Positions 4,434 through 21,747 of a stretch of 29,280 nt of DNA are shown here, piece after piece; the first letter of the stretch is position 1; every line of letters starts with the position of its first letter. This stretch comes from a virus, in the IMG/VR virus record IMGVR_UViG_3300026471_000376, positions 1 to 29,280 of that record; one strand, 5' to 3'. Position numbers and translations under genes: made by a program. The notes under the pieces are model-generated. The model did not search any database and was not told the DNA's origin. It saw only the letters and a list, made by a program, of their open reading frames with translations.

Positions 4434-4444
4434 GTTATAAATAT
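4434..4444 (-). promoter_or_regulatory. Late-promoter-like box ATATTTATAAC
   Basis: Exact motif copy overlapping the stop codon of the GIY-YIG-type gene. It lies only 3 nt before the annotated gp15-like ATG, so it would give a leaderless message or serve an internal start. Confidence 0.45.
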
Positions 4445-4989
4445 TGTCTACATTCCGTATAACCCGAAAAGTTTATTCCTTCTGGAAAAGTAAAGGATAA
4501 ATGGTTGGTGTTATGTTTAGTCTTAGATTCTAAAGCTTTTATATAAGATTTATTACCTACTTCCTCTTTTAATACTTTAATATTATAATCTAAATAGTTT
4601 CTATATCTATAGTTTATGCTATGTTGAGTTATTCCAAACTTATAAAAAGTAAATCCTAAAGACTTATGAGTAAACTTACACTCATAATATACCCAATCAC
4701 CACCCTTATTACCTTCGAGAAGTTTAGAGTCATAGATTTTTTTTCTTTGTTTACTTGCCCATACCTTATCATAATCTCGGTACTTTTGAAGTTTTTCTTC
4801 ATCGTGTTTGTATGAAGTGTGGTATAACTCTTTTTGCTGTTCTAAAATCGTAGGTTTATTCTTTTTATAATAAGATTTAGCTCGTTTAGACCAACAAGGT
4901 TTACAAGTGTAAAGGTGGTTTTTTTCCATAGATAAAGACCAATTATCACTTATAGTTAGAGTTTGATTACATTTATTACACTTCCTCAT
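4435..4989 (-). CDS. Free-standing GIY-YIG-type homing endonuclease with zinc-finger N-terminus
   Basis: The N-terminus has two Cys pairs (C4-x2-C7 and C29-x2-C32), a likely zinc-binding DNA-recognition module. A Lys/Tyr-rich linker follows (about residues 35-90). The C-terminal domain carries a GIY-YIG-like arrangement: WVYYECKF (99-106), FYKFGIT (115-121), Arg128/Arg130, Glu154 on a helix, and the closing GYTEC (176-180). The pattern resembles the T5orf172/MUG113 branch of GIY-YIG nucleases. Such proteins cut phage DNA near their own locus and promote their own spread. It sits exactly between the gp14- and gp15-like genes, with gaps of 2 nt and 4 nt, a typical invasion site of a mobile endonuclease. 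The zinc module closely matches that of the HNH enzyme at 7654..8238. Confidence 0.7.
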   Translation of the reverse strand: MRKCNKCNQTLTISDNWSLSMEKNHLYTCKPCWSKRAKSYYKKNKPTILEQQKELYHTSYKHDEEKLQKYRDYDKVWASKQRKKIYDSKLLEGNKGGDWVYYECKFTHKSLGFTFYKFGITQHSINYRYRNYLDYNIKVLKEEVGNKSYIKALESKTKHNTNHLSFTFPEGINFSGYTECRQYL

Positions 4990-6741: not shown

Positions 6742-7479
6742 CTAATTTCTATTATTATAATTGTTGGAACCAGAAGTTATAATTGATATACCACTATCAA
6801 TTGCTTCTTGGTAATATTCTAATAAATCTTCAACAATTTCATTTCTATGGTTTGTAGTTAAAGTAATTGCCTCTAAATTTTTAATTTTTCTAGCAGCAGA
6901 ATACAAAAACTTAAAACCAGAATCTGATTTTTTCTTTAGATCGGTTTGTTGAGCATCACCACACACCATCATTTTACTTCTTAATCCTAAACGTGAAGTT
7001 ATCATTTCCATTTGTTGGTGAGTAACATTTTGTGCTTCATCAACAATAATCATTGAATCTAGGAATGTTCTACCTCTCATAAAGGATACAGGTACAATTT
7101 CTATTTTACCATCTTCAATAAGTTTTTCAATTTTAGATTTATCATATAATTGAAAGAAATTTTGATAAATGGGTTGTACCCAGGGATCCATTTTTTCTCT
7201 TAAGTCACCAGGTAAAAAACCTATTTCTTCTTTTGATACTGTAGGTCTAGTAATTATGATTTTGTCATATTGTCTTCGTAGTAACCCATCTAAGGCAATA
7301 TTACATGCAAGTAATGTTTTTCCACTACCTGCGCTTCCCCCTAGAAGGGTGATTGTGTTATCAAGTATTGTTTGTTTTGCTTCTTTTTGTTCGGCATTAA
7401 GTTGGAGTTTGAACTTAATTGGGTTTTTAGGAATTCTTTTAGGACGATATACATCGTCCGTATGGTGTTTACTTGCCAT
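6742..7479 (-). CDS. phoH: PhoH-like P-loop ATPase
   Basis: This 245-aa protein has the complete PhoH ATPase core: Walker A GGSAGSGKT (47-55), IIITRPTVSKEEIGFLPGDL (74-93) typical of the family, Walker B MIIVDEAQN (143-151), the SRLG and MVCGDAQQTDL sensor motifs (162-181), and a late TNHRNEIVEDLLEYY segment. The length matches single-domain PhoH proteins. Family members are cytosolic ATPases linked in bacteria to phosphate starvation and RNA metabolism. In marine phages the gene is common and its function is unsettled. Here it opens the neck-gene unit, after a 174-nt intergenic stretch with the HNH gene's terminator and a promoter-like box. That placement puts it in the late structural transcription unit rather than in a nucleotide-metabolism cluster. 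Confidence 0.92.
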   Translation of the reverse strand: MASKHHTDDVYRPKRIPKNPIKFKLQLNAEQKEAKQTILDNTITLLGGSAGSGKTLLACNIALDGLLRRQYDKIIITRPTVSKEEIGFLPGDLREKMDPWVQPIYQNFFQLYDKSKIEKLIEDGKIEIVPVSFMRGRTFLDSMIIVDEAQNVTHQQMEMITSRLGLRSKMMVCGDAQQTDLKKKSDSGFKFLYSAARKIKNLEAITLTTNHRNEIVEDLLEYYQEAIDSGISIITSGSNNYNNRN

Positions 7480-7653: not shown

Positions 7654-8238
7654 TTAAGATATTTTATCACTTTTTAACCTATTTTCAAGTGCTTCCATAG
7701 GTTGTGTATTGGTATAATGGAAACATTTATATAATTCTTTCTCATTATTTAAGTCAAATGAAGCTATAGGTTTAATATGATCTATATGCCAATAACTCCC
7801 CTGGTTATTCCAATTCATTTTATCATCAAATTTTGATTCTAAGTAATTACAATAATCACCTATAGAACATCCTAAGTATTCAATAGTTCTATCTTTTTTT
7901 AATGTTTGATAAGTTTTTAATGCCTCATGGATTCTAGCAGATGTTAAATGTTTTATTCTGAAAGGTAAATCTGTTGCATATCTTTCTCTTTCCCATTCTC
8001 TATATAATTCTTTGTTGGAATGGTAGTGATTGTAGGAATATTTGTTGAAATATTCTTTATTTGCTTTTCGGTAGGTTTTGTAGTAATCACTATCTTTTCT
8101 CCCTGATGTATGGTAGTAGGTTTTGAATTTAGAATTCAAACAGGATTTACAATATCTATGTTTCCCATCCTTTTCTCCTTTACGATTACAATACTCAGTT
8201 AAGGGTTTTAATTGATTACATTTTTTACATTGTTTCAT
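7654..8238 (-). CDS. Free-standing HNH homing endonuclease with zinc-finger N-terminus
   Basis: The 194-aa protein has two Cys pairs at the N-terminus (C4-x2-C7, C30-x2-C33). The Lys/Tyr/Arg-rich middle (about 38-120) probably binds DNA. The C-terminal HNH nuclease reads WHIDHIKPIASFDL (150-163), then HYTNTQPM (174-181) and N186, containing the catalytic/metal residues expected of the fold (H151, D153, H154, N177, N186). Such enzymes cut cognate phage DNA and copy themselves by repair. It lies between the gp23 gene and phoH, with its own promoter-like box 20 nt upstream and its own terminator 7 nt downstream. It looks like a self-contained mobile cassette. Its zinc module resembles that of the GIY-YIG-type gene at 4435..4989. 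Confidence 0.88.
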   Translation of the reverse strand: MKQCKKCNQLKPLTEYCNRKGEKDGKHRYCKSCLNSKFKTYYHTSGRKDSDYYKTYRKANKEYFNKYSYNHYHSNKELYREWERERYATDLPFRIKHLTSARIHEALKTYQTLKKDRTIEYLGCSIGDYCNYLESKFDDKMNWNNQGSYWHIDHIKPIASFDLNNEKELYKCFHYTNTQPMEALENRLKSDKIS

Positions 8239-16598: not shown

Positions 16599-18170
16599 CT
16601 AAAGGAGCCATCTAATATCTTCTTTATTTCCTCCCATATCTTGATGGTAAGGATTATCAGACCCTTTTGAAAAACCATACCCTCCTTGATATCCTGTTCT
16701 GTTTACAGTCATACCACCTAAGGCATTTTTAGTAGCTTGTAATCCTTGTTGTCTTAATTTTAATGCTGTATCTCTAATATACATAGCTATTCCAAAAGAC
16801 ATTACTAAATCATCATTATACCCACTTTGAGCTTCTGCTCTATTATTTTTCCATATAAAGGTTTTCATTTCTTCTAACAATCTTTTTGATTGGATTGTTA
16901 CTCCTTTATCACTAATATATTCTTGGAATTTACCTATCACCATAGGTCTAGTCCTAGAAGACATTGTAAAACCAGCTACCATTTTTGAGTGGTCTTGATA
17001 CTTATCAAAATACGAACTAGCATTTGGGGAATCACTCTTTTGTGAATAATAAAGGTTAGGATATTGTCTATCTAAAGCAACTTGTATAGTTGCCCAACCA
17101 ATATTAGCGTTTTCTATTACTAACATTGCTTCATTATATTCAGTAGCTAAACCAACTAATAAATGTCCATATTCTTTTGTACCTAATTGTCCTTTATATT
17201 CGGCAACTTGTACATTATTTGCTACATCAATTACATGACACGCTGAATAGTCTTTTCCATCGCCACGAGCAACGTCTGCTACTACTACATAATCTCTGGT
17301 GTAATCTGGTGATTCCCAAACCCATAAATTTTGGTCTGCTCCCCTTCTTTCCATAGGATCTTTTATATACGTTTTTTCATAAAAGTCTAAATATTCAGGG
17401 TAGAATACTATATCACCAGAGGTACTAAAATCACAATCACATTCCTGTGCCGCTAATCTAGGGTCACCTAGTAAGGAGTCTTGGGCATCTCTCCATGCTT
17501 GGTCTCTTTCAGGGTGTACATACCAAGGTAGTTTTATTGGTAAGAATTGGTTTTCTCTATTTTCAGCCCTAACCCATGTTTGGTGGAACCAATTACCAGT
17601 ACCATAAGGGGTAGATAATGCTATACAACCTCCCCCAGTTGCTAGGGTTTGTTGTGCTGAAGCCCATATTTCACCAATATTATCAATAAAAGCTGCTTCA
17701 TCAATTAGTAGTAAAGATACTGCTTCGGATCTACCTGCATCACTTGAAGCTGAGGTTGCTTTAATTTGTGAGCCGTTATTTAATCTTAAGGTTAATTTGT
17801 TATTTTCGGGAGCATCAATTTTAAGCCATGAAGGTAAATTTTCATACATGAATTTTACCTTTGTAACCATGTTTTTAGCTGTTTCTTGTTTTGTTGCTAT
17901 ACAAAGTATATTTTTATCCTTATGGAATATCATTAACCATAATGAATAACCTGCACCTAATGTTGAAATACCTAACTGTCTAGATTTTAATACTACATTA
18001 TAAGGATTATCTTGGAATAATTTAAGTACTTTTTCTTGAAAAGGGTATAAATTAAATTGTATGCGTCCACGTTGTGGGTGCTGTATATAACAGTATTTAC
18101 GCATAAAATGTACTGGGTCTTGAGCACATTTTAAATATTCTTGGCGTATTACTTTTTTTAAATCAGACAT
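16599..18170 (-). CDS. gp17: Terminase large subunit (DNA-packaging ATPase/nuclease), gp17-like
   Basis: 523-aa packaging motor with both domains. ATPase: adenine-binding FNLYPFQEKVL (39-49), Walker A-like KSRQLGIST (62-70), Walker B LLLIDEAAF (153-161), and coupling motif LSTPYGTGNWF (185-195). RNase H-type nuclease: VVADVARGDGKDYSA (296-310, Asp299), LVIENANIG (350-358, Glu353) and GYNDDLVMSFG (450-460, Asp453/454). It translocates DNA into the prohead through the portal and cuts concatemers. It is shorter than T4 gp17 (610 aa), mainly at the N-terminus, which begins close to the ATPase domain. The gene starts 1 nt after the stop of the membrane-protein gene at 18172..18576. Next to it T4 would carry 18 and 19 (sheath and tube), which are absent here; the portal follows directly. 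Confidence 0.96.
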   Translation of the reverse strand: MSDLKKVIRQEYLKCAQDPVHFMRKYCYIQHPQRGRIQFNLYPFQEKVLKLFQDNPYNVVLKSRQLGISTLGAGYSLWLMIFHKDKNILCIATKQETAKNMVTKVKFMYENLPSWLKIDAPENNKLTLRLNNGSQIKATSASSDAGRSEAVSLLLIDEAAFIDNIGEIWASAQQTLATGGGCIALSTPYGTGNWFHQTWVRAENRENQFLPIKLPWYVHPERDQAWRDAQDSLLGDPRLAAQECDCDFSTSGDIVFYPEYLDFYEKTYIKDPMERRGADQNLWVWESPDYTRDYVVVADVARGDGKDYSACHVIDVANNVQVAEYKGQLGTKEYGHLLVGLATEYNEAMLVIENANIGWATIQVALDRQYPNLYYSQKSDSPNASSYFDKYQDHSKMVAGFTMSSRTRPMVIGKFQEYISDKGVTIQSKRLLEEMKTFIWKNNRAEAQSGYNDDLVMSFGIAMYIRDTALKLRQQGLQATKNALGGMTVNRTGYQGGYGFSKGSDNPYHQDMGGNKEDIRWLL

Positions 18171-18171
18171 A

Positions 18172-18576
18172 CTATTTTACTAAAAGTATAGCAGCTATTA
18201 CTGCTACAGCTCCAGCTCCAGCTGTTAATTTATTTTTGAATTTTTGCTTTTTAACTTCAAGTCTTAATTTATTATTTAATTCTTGAGTAAAATTTAATTG
18301 AGATGTTTTTGAATTCAATATGGAATTGAAATTATTAATTTGGAAGTTAAGATTATTAATAATACTATCTTTTAATACAACTTTATTTTCTAATAAAGAG
18401 TATTTTTTTGCAACTAAACTTAATTCTTGTTTAAAACTATCCCCAGTTATCAAGTCTTTAATAACTAACCTGACTATTGGTTTTTTTAATTGAATCGAGG
18501 TGCTGTCTATAACGTTCTGTGAAAAACTGTTTAAGCTCATCATCCCCAAAAGAATCAACATTATTAACTTTCTCAT
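18172..18576 (-). CDS. Exported coiled-coil protein with C-terminal membrane anchor, spanin-like partner
   Basis: 134 aa. A signal peptide (1-19; basic MRK, hydrophobic LIMLILLGMMSL, then NSFS) is followed by Q20. Gln at +1 is the pattern reported for Bacteroidetes signal-peptidase I substrates. The mature part has a long coiled-coil stretch (about 50-112, rich in Leu/Asn/Lys) and ends in one membrane segment (TAGAGAVAVIAAILLV, 118-133) with one Lys after it. There is no lipobox Cys, unlike classical Rz1 or u-spanins. Its first 119 nt overlap, in another frame, the 3' end of the TM/coiled-coil gene at 18458..18841. The architecture and nesting suggest an envelope-disrupting lysis pair. An alternative is a periplasmic or inner-membrane protein of unrelated function. 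Confidence 0.65.
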   Translation of the reverse strand: MRKLIMLILLGMMSLNSFSQNVIDSTSIQLKKPIVRLVIKDLITGDSFKQELSLVAKKYSLLENKVVLKDSIINNLNFQINNFNSILNSKTSQLNFTQELNNKLRLEVKKQKFKNKLTAGAGAVAVIAAILLVK

Positions 18577-18841
18577 TTGTTTGTTTTTTTAATGTAACTA
18601 TTTTACTATCTTGTTTACTAATTTCTTGGTCTAGTTTGATTATTTGACCGTTTAAGGTATCAATTTCCAAGGTTAATTCTTCATTTATGTTATGTAAAGA
18701 ATTAATTTTACTTTCTAATGCCTCTATTTTACTATTATACTCATTGATATATTCATCTTCATTTGAAGAGTACATATTAATTAGGTAGTAAGCACCAAAA
18801 AATACTATAGCAATATATAAAAACCTTTCCTTAGATGACAT
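18458..18841 (-). CDS. N-terminally anchored coiled-coil membrane protein, i-spanin-like
   Basis: 127 aa with one N-terminal membrane segment (FLYIAIVFFGAYYLINMY, 7-24) preceded by MSSKER. A long coiled coil (about 30-92, with heptad-like I/L spacing in KIEALESKINSLHNINEEL and LNGQIIKLDQEISKQ) leads to a conserved-looking end, FGDDELKQFFTERYRQ (98-113). This is the plan of Rz-type inner-membrane spanins, which join an outer-membrane or periplasmic partner to fuse or break the envelope in lysis. The ATG overlaps the stop of the upstream gene (TAATG), so translation is coupled. The 3' third encodes the next protein's signal peptide in another frame. No endolysin or holin is seen nearby. Confidence 0.68.
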   Translation of the reverse strand: MSSKERFLYIAIVFFGAYYLINMYSSNEDEYINEYNSKIEALESKINSLHNINEELTLEIDTLNGQIIKLDQEISKQDSKIVTLKKQTNEKVNNVDSFGDDELKQFFTERYRQHLDSIKKTNSQVSY

Positions 18842-19590
18842 TATATCTTCTTTTTATCTAGAATACTTTCTAGTTCTTTTTTTAATTTAGTTTTTGCCTT
18901 TAAGATTTTTACTAGTTTTTCTTTTTCTTCACCTTCAGCTTTAGAATATTTCTTAGCTAATGACTTCATTTCACGGGTTAATAAAGCTAATTCATCCTTT
19001 GCTTTAGCTAAACCCTTAGTTTTTTTCATATCAGATTTAGATGGTTCTTTATCATCATCTTCTTTTATATCATAGGGGTTTTTATGGGGGTTTACAACGG
19101 CATCATATGCTTTACCAATATCACCACCATAAAATTCATCAGTAATTTTTTTACCCAACTTTTCTAATTGGTCACTAGGTAAATTACTTTCTTTTCCAAA
19201 TCCTTCTAGATAAAATTGGCCTATATCTTCATAGTCATAAGTAAAATCTTTCATTAATGGTGTTGCATCTTCATCTAAACGAAGTGAACCTGCACTATCT
19301 ATAATAGCTTGAACAAACCCCTTTTTATATGCTGTGGTATCTGGTCTGTTATCTAGGATGGATTTATCAAAATGCATATCAAATGCCTTTTCTCCAGCAT
19401 CATACCCCATTTCTTCTAAATATGCTAAACCTATATTAGCTTCTTCTATACCCGCTTCTTTTTTAGCTGCATCTAAATCTTTAACTGCTGCAGTTAATTC
19501 TTTAGTTTTTTTAATTTCTGCATCAGTATCCTCAGATAGGGTAGAGATAATGTTTTCTTTAATATATTTTTGTAATTCAGACTTTTTCAT
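18841..19590 (-). CDS. Putative core/internal virion protein, 249 aa
   Basis: Starts MKKSELQKYIKENIISTLSE, an amphipathic helix ending in an L-x-E sequence, followed by an Ala/Asp/Lys/Glu-rich middle (about 22-165) with GLAYLEEMGYDAGEKAF and FYLEGFGKES, and a strongly basic, coiled-coil-like C-terminus (DELALLTREMKSLAKKYS to KTKLKKELESILDKKK). No catalytic motif is visible. The N-terminal helix resembles ones in the other unrecognised proteins at 26239-29280 and 25781. It might be a capsid-targeting sequence removed by gp21, as in T4 internal proteins; this is hypothesis. The gene begins the unit that continues into the spanin-like pair and the terminase, with a late-promoter-like box 14 nt upstream. 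Confidence 0.62.
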   Translation of the reverse strand: MKKSELQKYIKENIISTLSEDTDAEIKKTKELTAAVKDLDAAKKEAGIEEANIGLAYLEEMGYDAGEKAFDMHFDKSILDNRPDTTAYKKGFVQAIIDSAGSLRLDEDATPLMKDFTYDYEDIGQFYLEGFGKESNLPSDQLEKLGKKITDEFYGGDIGKAYDAVVNPHKNPYDIKEDDDKEPSKSDMKKTKGLAKAKDELALLTREMKSLAKKYSKAEGEEKEKLVKILKAKTKLKKELESILDKKKI

Positions 19591-19616: not shown

Positions 19617-20147
19617 TTAAAGATTAGTAAACTTTAATATTTGTTGAATTCGTTCTTCTGTAGACCCTGATATTACCTCTAAACCTCCTGCTTTATGTCC
19701 ATGTTTTCTGATGAGGGATGTAATAGTAGAATCAATTAAATTTCTATACTGTTCATTTGTTTCTCTAACCCCATTATCTTCAATTGGGATTCCTTTAGGA
19801 GAAATGTAAAATATACAATCATATTCTCTAACAAATTCACTGGCATATGTTTCAAATGCTTTCTTATCTTGGTAAGATATTGACTTAGCATTTAATGTAA
19901 AAGCCATAACATCAAGAACTGTTCTATCTGTAATGATATCTGTTTGGATCAATTCAGCACAACGTTCAGCTAAAAATATGGTTTGTCCCTTTAATGTTGA
20001 ATCAGTATTTAAGGGGATACCTTGTTCCATTAAAAATTTAGAACGTTCTGTTCTAAACATGTAATCTTTAAATTGCTTTGTATTTTTTAAAGCATTTACT
20101 AATGTAGTTTTACCTACACTCATTGTACCACATAAACCTATTTTCAT
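19617..20147 (-). CDS. P-loop ATPase/kinase of the NadR-like (AAA_28) type
   Basis: 176 aa beginning MKIGLCGTMSVGKTTLVNAL, with Walker A G7-T-M-S-V-G-K13-T-T. Further conserved-looking blocks are RTERSKFLMEQGIPLN (32-47), an aromatic-rich IFLAERCAELI helix, IITDRTVLDVMAFTL (71-85) in the place of the Walker B/kinase DR segment, and FYISPKG near 113. This resembles the NadR-type nicotinamide-riboside kinase/AAA_28 group of small nucleotide or nucleoside kinases. Substrate cannot be told from the sequence; nucleoside, NMN/NR or nucleotide kinase are options. It is the last of three genes in the non-structural island with the FAD oxidoreductase, starting 3 nt after the 89-aa gene ends. Confidence 0.75.
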   Translation of the reverse strand: MKIGLCGTMSVGKTTLVNALKNTKQFKDYMFRTERSKFLMEQGIPLNTDSTLKGQTIFLAERCAELIQTDIITDRTVLDVMAFTLNAKSISYQDKKAFETYASEFVREYDCIFYISPKGIPIEDNGVRETNEQYRNLIDSTITSLIRKHGHKAGGLEVISGSTEERIQQILKFTNL

Positions 20148-20454: not shown

Positions 20455-21747
20455 TTAGTTATCCAAAAGTGATTCAGCAACATATACCCCTTGTGCACCA
20501 CTTACCGTTATACCTCTAGCTGATAAAGCATCGCCTACGAAGTGTACGTTAGAATACTTAGTGAGTGCTAAATTGGTATAATCGACAAGTGGCTCAGGTG
20601 ATAGATATTTTACTTCAGGTACATAAATACCCCAATCATCTTTTAATGTTGGGAATACTTTTTTCATATCCTCAATAAAATCATATACATACATAAAGTA
20701 TGGTTGCATTGATTTTGAAATTTTATGTAATGTATCTACTTGAATAGCTGATACATTTACACCTTCTGATGTTGTTGAAGGTTTTCTACTTGGACTATAA
20801 TATAATCCTGTACCATCTATTTGTAAATTTTTAACTACATCTCTTGACCAATCAAATGGTTTATCAATACCTTGCACTTCCATTAATATACCAAAATTGG
20901 TCATATCATTTCGGAATGCTTCATCTTTTTTAGCGTGTCCATTATATGAATGATCACCATATGTTTCTTCAACTGCTACATATGCTGCGTTATTGTTAGT
21001 ACAAAATGATCTTAATGATACACCTTTATCTTCAAATTTTCTATATAATTTGAAATCATAAGATACGTCAATTAATTTTTGGAAGTGTTTTTGTGGTGCT
21101 TCAAATCTAACACCTATTTGTACTGGTTTTGGTTCTGTGGGTAGATCATATTCTTCTGCTAATTGTTTGCCAAAATCAATACCTGATTTACCTACACCAA
21201 AAATAAGTTTATCATATGGTCTTCTAATTTTAATATTATTAGTTTCAACTATATTTTGATTAAAATGTATTTGAGTTACTTTAGTTTCCCAAATAAATTC
21301 TACACCACCATCAACTAAAAAGTCATACCAATTTTTACCTATTTCATGTAAATAATCTGTACCAACGTGCCATACTGGAAATAATCTTAATCCAAAATAT
21401 GGTTTAATAAAATCTGGTTCTGCAACTGGATTTGAACATTGTACTTCTTCTGGTTTAGGATGGAATCGTTTGAAATTATCAATTACTTGATCCATTAATT
21501 CCATTGCTTTTTCTTCACCACAATATTTAGATAATTGACCACCAATTGAAGTATGATAAGTTAATTTACCATCAGACCAACCTCCTGCTCCTAAGAAGCC
21601 TGTCATTACCTCTTCATATGGTCTTAAATATGGATCTTTACCCATATCAATTATGGTGATTTTACCTTTAAAACCATTATCAATTAGCTTAGTAGCAGCA
21701 TTTACATTTGCTACACCTGCTCCAATCATTACTACGTTTTTACTCAT
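20455..21747 (-). CDS. FAD-dependent oxidoreductase, COG2509-like
   Basis: 430-aa flavoprotein. The N-terminal Rossmann fold is VVMIGAGVANVNAATKL (5-21) with GAG at 9-11; the third Gly of G-x-G-x-x-G is replaced by Asn14. The acidic end of strand 2 lies in IIDMGKD. GAGGWSDGKLTYH (53-65) and KLIFGVGKSGIDFG (about 181-194) follow the pattern of COG2509-type dehydrogenases. The FAD-closing C-terminus is VHFVGDALSARGITVSGAQGVYVAESLL (about 399-426). The usual Cys-x-Cys-Pro-Gly-Gly centre of COG2509 appears altered to RSFCTNNNAAYVAVEE, so chemistry may differ. Substrate is unknown. It is cytosolic with no signal peptide. It heads a three-gene island between virion-type blocks, after a strong terminator and a second-class promoter-like box. 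It is a likely auxiliary metabolic or modification gene acquired by transfer. Confidence 0.78.
   Translation of the reverse strand: MSKNVVMIGAGVANVNAATKLIDNGFKGKITIIDMGKDPYLRPYEEVMTGFLGAGGWSDGKLTYHTSIGGQLSKYCGEEKAMELMDQVIDNFKRFHPKPEEVQCSNPVAEPDFIKPYFGLRLFPVWHVGTDYLHEIGKNWYDFLVDGGVEFIWETKVTQIHFNQNIVETNNIKIRRPYDKLIFGVGKSGIDFGKQLAEEYDLPTEPKPVQIGVRFEAPQKHFQKLIDVSYDFKLYRKFEDKGVSLRSFCTNNNAAYVAVEETYGDHSYNGHAKKDEAFRNDMTNFGILMEVQGIDKPFDWSRDVVKNLQIDGTGLYYSPSRKPSTTSEGVNVSAIQVDTLHKISKSMQPYFMYVYDFIEDMKKVFPTLKDDWGIYVPEVKYLSPEPLVDYTNLALTKYSNVHFVGDALSARGITVSGAQGVYVAESLLDN

Follow-up and report, generated by a model that had tools for sequence, protein, structure and literature searches.

A conserved overlapping gene pair lacking a lipobox as a candidate spanin-like module in phages of Bacteroidetes-type hosts

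Spanins are the proteins known to pair a type II coiled-coil inner-membrane protein with a partner whose gene lies out of frame at the end of the first gene, both being located in lysis cassettes. Two-component spanins are usually, though not universally, clustered with holin and endolysin genes, and in T4-like phages they are not. In the classification of Kongari et al. (2018, PMC6139136), T4 pseT.3/pseT.2 are two-component spanins of the overlapped class and lambda Rz/Rz1 represent the embedded class. That study also showed that about 96% of known two-component spanins have periplasmic Cys residues for disulfide linkage and that T1-type unimolecular spanins (u-spanins) are beta-rich in the periplasm. 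Its list of "spanin-less" phages includes Bacteroides phage B124-14 and Croceibacter phages P2559S/Y, and the authors noted that proteins with other anchors could serve as spanins. In a 2025 survey where o-spanins counted only if they carried a lipobox, Bacteroidetes phages yielded u-spanins alone (PMC12596118).

We analyzed a pair of overlapping genes, here called P1 and P2, in a 29,280-nt stretch of viral DNA (the window; IMG/VR record IMGVR_UViG_3300026471_000376), a partial genome (29 kb) of a T4-like virus. Its nearest isolate is Flavobacterium phage vB_FspM_immuto (immuto), with a terminase large subunit (TerL) that is ∼60% identical. The pair and its surroundings are arranged as follows.

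16599..18170, minus strand: TerL, directly 3' of P2 (1 nt gap)
18172..18576, minus strand: P2, putative exported partner, 134 aa (ORF, relatives, AlphaFold2)
18175..18228, minus strand: P2 hydrophobic C-terminal tail, residues 117-133, plus the terminal Lys (AlphaFold2, hydropathy)
18229..18252, minus strand: P2 basic cluster KKQKFKNK, residues 109-116 (net charge before the tail)
18445..18483, minus strand: helix near the P2 N-terminus, residues 32-44, around KPIVRLVIKDLIT (conservation within mature P2 is highest here)
18458..18576, minus strand: out-of-frame overlap of the P1 3' end and the P2 5' end, 119 nt
18458..18841, minus strand: P1, i-spanin-like, 127 aa (ORF, relatives, AlphaFold2)
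18509..18559, minus strand: P1 C-terminal motif VDxxxxxELxxFFTxRY, residues 95-111 (alignments; encoded inside the overlap)
18520..18576, minus strand: P2 signal peptide, residues 1-19, predicted cleavage S19/Q20 (S19 and Q20 invariant in 72 diverse members; Q-rule)
18554..18739, minus strand: P1 coiled-coil helix, residues 35-96 (AlphaFold2, heptad periodicity, coiled-coil matches)
18770..18823, minus strand: P1 transmembrane segment, residues 7-24 (hydropathy, sequence)
18841..19590, minus strand: gene of unknown function, 249 aa, upstream of P1 with a 1-nt overlap

TerL is followed by a T4-type portal gene, and neither an Rfam family nor a tRNA was found in the window. Upstream of the pair are an AAA_28/thymidylate-kinase-like NTPase (19617-20147) and an FAD-dependent oxidoreductase-like gene (20455-21747); one relative (L229) has genes resembling both in the same order. 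By eye we also noted two homing endonuclease candidates with Cys-rich N-termini, one HNH-like (7654-8238) between the PhoH-like and major capsid genes and without a Pfam match, and one GIY-YIG-like (4435-4989) among the tail and neck genes.

P2 begins 119 nt ahead of the P1 stop and is read in frame +1 with respect to P1. When P1 codons were reshuffled synonymously, the P2 frame was open across the overlap in only 0.8% of trials. Among 56 ungapped relatives, the synonymous divergence of P1 was 0.44 outside the overlap compared with 0.18 inside it. Both genes are under purifying selection outside the overlap (pn/ps ∼0.42), and the P2 frame inside the overlap gives a pn/ps of 0.40 in the same relatives. 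The same +1 frame occurs in 147 of 147 distinct complete pairs, with overlaps ranging from 74 to 128 nt. The conserved frame, synonymous suppression and purifying selection show that the overlap is real and beyond chance.

Iterated profile searches recovered about 290 loci, with P1 present in 289, P2 in 289 and both together in 288; the two loci with one gene alone are both cut by a contig end. As the loci were collected using P1 or P2 as bait, the informative part of this result is the co-occurrence of the partner. Neither protein matched any named family, and a search of bacterial host genomes for the pair returned a single MAG contig. A scan for the P1/P2 architecture picked out only the pair itself in immuto and gave no hit in ∼400 kb of other sequence; it did not detect the architecture in crAss001, B124-14, 6H or FCL-2. 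Our search of the open-access literature found no description of the pair.

In P1, one hydrophobic segment at the N-terminus leads into a helix with strong heptad periodicity (median z of 5.8, with z >2 in 97% of 71 representatives). An AlphaFold2 model built on an alignment of 72 sequences (pLDDT 86) consists of a helix at residues 3-96, a kink, and a second helix at residues 100-121 that contains the conserved ELxxFFTxRY. By prediction only, P1 thus meets the definition of an i-spanin, namely a type II protein with an N-terminal transmembrane segment and a periplasmic coiled coil. Periplasmic Cys was found in 0 of 67 P1s. Attempts to assign P1 to a family failed, as Pfam gave coiled-coil-type matches alone, and the Rz-like spanin family phrog_739, which matched 12 of 72 P1s with a best value of 1.5e-5, did not outperform other coiled-coil families. 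A search of solved structures with P1 likewise returned coiled coils alone.

The predicted signal peptide of P2 in the window terminates in SFS|Q, and the protein contains no Cys. S19 and Q20 are among the four invariant columns, the only such columns, in 72 diverse P2s, and an S-Q junction (usually SFS|Q) occurs near the end of the signal peptide in all 147. In Bacteroidetes, Gln directly follows the signal peptidase I site (the Q-rule, PMC5837995). P2 meets this criterion and is predicted from its sequence to be a Q-rule substrate of signal peptidase I. No Cys was present within the first 35 residues of the first 72 P2s, and in the set of 147 an early Cys occurs in only six, as single-residue replacements just before the S-Q site or after it. 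No common canonical lipobox exists among the 147, indicating that the missing lipobox is a family-wide trait and not a local loss. No lipoprotein ORF was detected in the window, and candidates were found in just 4 of 71 representative loci. We also considered a separate o-spanin lipoprotein near the pair and rejected it, as none is conserved and the immuto candidate lies 25 kb away.

The AlphaFold2 model of P2 (alignment of 72, pLDDT 82) has a short N-terminal part, a helix at residues 32-44, and a long helix at residues 46-133 that runs through the tail. The long helix is only weakly heptad-periodic (median z of 1.25). Each protein was modelled alone, and the low pTM of both models is what single long helices would be expected to give. 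The periplasmic helices measure 74-80 residues in P1 and 70 or 73 residues in P2, so that at 1.5 Å per residue each stalk of ∼70 residues would extend ∼10.5 nm. This length varies too little for covariation of the two stalks to pick between geometries. The P2 tail consists of 15-20 hydrophobic residues, mostly closed by a Lys, and is preceded by a net charge of at least +3 in 71 of 71 representatives. Its median hydropathy is 1.82, compared with 1.94 for the P1 transmembrane segment. Its approximate insertion energy is marginal (median +0.4 kcal/mol, versus −1.6 kcal/mol for P1), an estimate that is rough because we combined a published scale with our own weights. Because the basic cluster precedes the tail, a tail anchored N-out/C-in in the inner membrane would contravene the positive-inside rule. 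We infer that the tail enters a membrane and leave undecided whether it is the inner or the outer one. Pfam gave no match for P2. PHROGs gave scattered matches for the pair; those to Rz-like PHROGs were no better than other coiled-coil matches and were discarded as evidence for a spanin. A fold search of viral structures with P2 found nothing (best E 2.4), and a search of solved structures gave nothing convincing.

A first-pass annotation made from the window sequence alone had reported the coordinates, strands and 119-nt out-of-frame overlap, which held exactly. It had called the start of the second gene embedded in the first, and in the terms of Kongari et al. this is corrected to the overlapped class. 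Its N-terminal membrane anchor and long coiled coil in P1 are upheld by hydropathy, periodicity and AlphaFold2, its signal peptide on P2 by the conserved S-Q site, and its remark that P2 lacks the lipobox of Rz1 extends across the whole family. The coiled coil it assigned to P2 is only partly supported, since a helix is predicted and the weak periodicity makes "coiled coil" less sure. Its description of the P2 C-terminus as an inner-membrane-type anchor remains uncertain, as the hydrophobic tail is real but the basic cluster opposes the positive-inside rule. The paired occurrence in other phages that it had suggested looking for was found, and is near-obligate.

In the window and in 115 of 157 distinct pairs, TerL adjoins the pair. 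Among the remaining 42, Amidase_2 is nearby in 25 (∼0.6 kb upstream in 18 and ∼3.8 kb downstream in 7), GH19 with or without a holin in 13, and a holin in 1, leaving 3 with none of these genes. For one of these three (L265), a phrog_33083-type endolysin lies 39 nt before the pair, another (L229) belongs to the terminase lineage and is cut at the contig end, and the third (L266) is a 3.5-kb contig. In immuto the gene order is GH19 endolysin, holin (Phage_holin_4_1), a small transmembrane gene, another gene, P1 (immuto_84) and P2 (immuto_85). A more compact order is found in the relative L159, where a transmembrane gene, GH19 (matching the phrog_181 endolysin, E 7e-61) and a holin are followed by P1 and P2, the holin gene sharing 14 nt with P1. 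In one further context a holin lies together with a DUF5675 gene beside the pair. We infer a lysis role for the pair mainly because varied endolysin families in varied arrangements surround it. The lineages concerned are related, and these cases are thus not fully independent. The lysis role of the window copy is itself inferred, being carried over from relatives. We did look for an endolysin in longer contigs of the terminase type, and rejected the Amidase_2 matches found there as they fall within ORFs of ∼1,180-1,470 aa that are probably tail proteins.

Several additional observations were made at these loci. The long Amidase_2 ORFs, in L310-L313 (the records of L129, L022, L064 and L220), probably encode a tail-associated peptidoglycan hydrolase. 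The deposited TTG start of immuto26A_85 (MW353175 46129-46488) falls inside the signal peptide; starting instead at an in-frame ATG that lies 42 nt earlier (46087), within immuto_84, recovers MKKLILLIPILLLSLSSFSQ. Near the endolysin and pair of L265 is a 59-aa ORF (6844-7023) that combines a lipobox (TFSC) with a run of hydrophobic residues at its C-terminus. Its product resembles a very small u-spanin and may be an extra lysis component there. Directly 3' of P2 in several lineages is a conserved multi-transmembrane protein with a coiled-coil-like region (L265:8646-9869, L270:8665-9858, L196:8361-9536, immuto_86), the function of which is possibly lysis-related. In jumbo phages, small genes with an N-terminal transmembrane segment and a Cys just after it (FFKTC in L137:2506-2775, FFKGC in L190:10399-10692) precede a multi-transmembrane gene near the amidase. 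A small lipoprotein family (MKKVFL..LVSC) is present in GH19-type relatives away from the pair (MW353175 19887-20114, L261:11771-11938, L262:12918-13097).

The endolysin of the L265 type led us to the Crassvirales. In cr127_1, crAss002, cr271_1, jaberico, ctcc615 and cr8_1 the endolysin is accompanied by a P1-like gene and an overlapping P2-like gene, annotated as hypothetical. The overlap is in the +1 frame in all six, and in the five records with following sequence TerL lies downstream, directly in four and after a few small genes in cr127_1. Profile comparisons of the matched families gave a probability of 95 (E 2e-8) for P2 and 89 (E 2e-6) for P1, versus 0.2 and 22 for mismatched controls; signal peptides and tails can inflate such scores. 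The cr127_1 pair (QOR59816/QOR59815) resembles P1/P2 in gene order, overlap, +1 frame, signal peptide, basic cluster and hydrophobic tail. It differs in that identity is too low for BLAST significance and P1 is shorter, and some crAss-like versions carry LLSC near the cleavage site (cr271_1, ctcc615 and cr8_1, but not the other three). We consider the crAss-like pairs likely to be homologous to P1/P2, and it is possible that the LLSC-bearing P2 versions are still lipoproteins.

Compared with two-component spanins of the overlapped class, the pair has the same layout of a type II inner-membrane coiled-coil protein followed by an overlapping, out-of-frame exported partner, and in relatives it stands at the end of an endolysin-holin cassette. 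The gene-arrangement criterion is met by all 147 distinct pairs, and co-location with holin or endolysin genes is met in immuto, jumbo and other relatives, though not in the window. The differences lie mainly in P2, which is a predicted signal peptidase I substrate without a lipobox, is helical, is as long as the i-spanin, and carries a basic-hydrophobic C-terminal tail. P2 thereby fails the o-spanin criterion of an outer-membrane lipoprotein with a lipobox. The disulfide criterion is also not met, as P1 lacks periplasmic Cys and only 7 of 72 P2s have one. Because the lipobox is absent in the 147 pairs, the pair is not a two-component spanin as defined, and a survey that filters on the lipobox would miss it. 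Unimolecular spanins such as T1 gp11 resemble P2 in having a signal sequence, a periplasmic domain and a C-terminal transmembrane-like segment; all P2s do have the hydrophobic tail, with marginal approximate energy and the basic cluster on its N-terminal side. Unlike these proteins, P2 has no Cys for a lipid anchor, is modelled as helical instead of beta-rich, and is invariably paired with a second gene. It is not a u-spanin because the N-terminal lipobox is absent and because P2, always accompanied by P1, does not meet the expectation that a u-spanin acts alone. The source phages share with the "spanin-less" phages of Kongari et al. their Bacteroidetes hosts and the lack of a detectable lipoprotein-based spanin. 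They differ in that P1/P2 supply a candidate replacement, an architecture that our scan did not detect in B124-14.

Taken together, we believe that P1/P2 are likely a lipid-free, two-component spanin-like module for outer-membrane disruption in Bacteroidetes-type hosts, with the lysis function inferred from synteny and topology. The genes, their conserved overlap, the export signal, the missing lipobox, the lysis-gene neighbours and the predicted helices are shown by computation. We infer P1-P2 contact, the target of the tail, the fusion step and the function itself. In the proposed mechanism, P1 would use its N-terminal segment as an inner-membrane anchor, with its helix reaching ∼70 residues into the periplasm. 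P2 would leave the cytoplasm through Sec, and cleavage by signal peptidase I would give a mature protein that starts with (pyro)glutamine. The P2 helix, equal in length to that of P1, would end in the basic cluster and the tail of 15-20 residues, which would enter a membrane. The conserved far ends, the P1 C-terminal motif and the P2 N-terminal helix, are proposed to meet, and once the endolysin opens the peptidoglycan the complex would bring the membranes together and the outer membrane would be lost. A bolder version, which we consider less likely than not, is that P2 swaps the o-spanin lipid for its basic-hydrophobic tail, which would penetrate the outer membrane in the manner of a fusion peptide. 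The heads of the two proteins, each ∼10.5 nm long, would meet mid-periplasm to span the envelope, a design that T4-like, jumbo and crAss-like phages of Bacteroidetes would share. The first-pass annotation had proposed probable non-canonical spanins from topology alone. That reading faced a synteny test and passed, and is also supported by the family-wide lack of a lipobox, although the lysis role remains inferred. Its statement that the pair fits neither two-component nor unimolecular spanins held by the lipobox and pairing criteria, and its Bacteroidetes link is upheld by the Flavobacterium isolate, the remote crAss-like versions and the Q-rule signal peptides.

Several points weigh against the preferred reading. 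The lipobox and the periplasmic Cys of P1 are missing, the Rz-like PHROG matches do not stand out, and TerL and not lysis genes adjoins most pairs. If the P2 tail sits in the inner membrane, nothing defined anchors the pair to the outer one, whereas an alpha-helical anchor in the outer membrane would be unusual. The question of the anchor also separates the sub-cases of this reading. Both proteins could sit in the inner membrane, P1 through its N-terminus and P2 through its tail as a type I protein, forming a single antiparallel stalk whose head either works on the outer membrane or brings in a further protein, without spanning the periplasm. The near-equal periplasmic helix lengths are as such a stalk needs, the tail hydropathy is near that of a transmembrane segment, and Kongari et al. 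(PMC6139136) propose that a type I inner-membrane protein could serve as an i-spanin. The balance nevertheless tips modestly against it, as the charge of at least +3 would lie in the periplasm in 71 of 71 representatives against the positive-inside rule, the insertion energy is marginal, and contact with the outer membrane is unexplained. It is also possible, though less likely, that P2 descends from a unimolecular spanin that was delipidated and later became dependent on P1, a claim about origin that is compatible with the preferred reading. The order of elements is the same, some crAss-like P2s retain LLSC, and the survey finds only u-spanins in Bacteroidetes phages (PMC12596118); against this, T1-type proteins are beta-rich whereas P2 is modelled as helical, P2 always occurs with P1, and other crAss-like copies lack LLSC.

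Readings that depart from outer-membrane disruption fare less well. The pair could instead time lysis, as an antiholin-like periplasmic sensor with a membrane partner, given that it adjoins or overlaps holin genes and that a cleavable signal peptide is also a feature of the T4 antiholin RI (PMC8385771). We regard this as unlikely since the pair is retained next to endolysins of unrelated kinds and, where TerL is the neighbour, has no holin close by, and since the overlapped arrangement and a type II coiled-coil P1 are typical of spanins. Least plausible of all is that the pair is unrelated to lysis and serves as an envelope pair for DNA entry, superinfection exclusion or virion assembly, with its lysis neighbours arising by chance. 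TerL as the usual immediate neighbour and the lack of any functional annotation speak for this view. Away from TerL, though, an endolysin or holin adjoins the pair in nearly every case and in several arrangements, and the crAss-like phages have both kinds of neighbour at once.

The means by which phages of Bacteroidetes breach the outer membrane are largely unknown, with surveys describing them as spanin-less or as having lipoprotein u-spanins only. P1/P2 provide a concrete and widespread candidate, including related genes of crAss-like gut phages that are now annotated as hypothetical. With immuto on Flavobacterium sp. LMO8, a cultured phage-host system carrying the pair is available, making it testable whether a spanin works without a lipid anchor, as Kongari et al. 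(2018) suggested.
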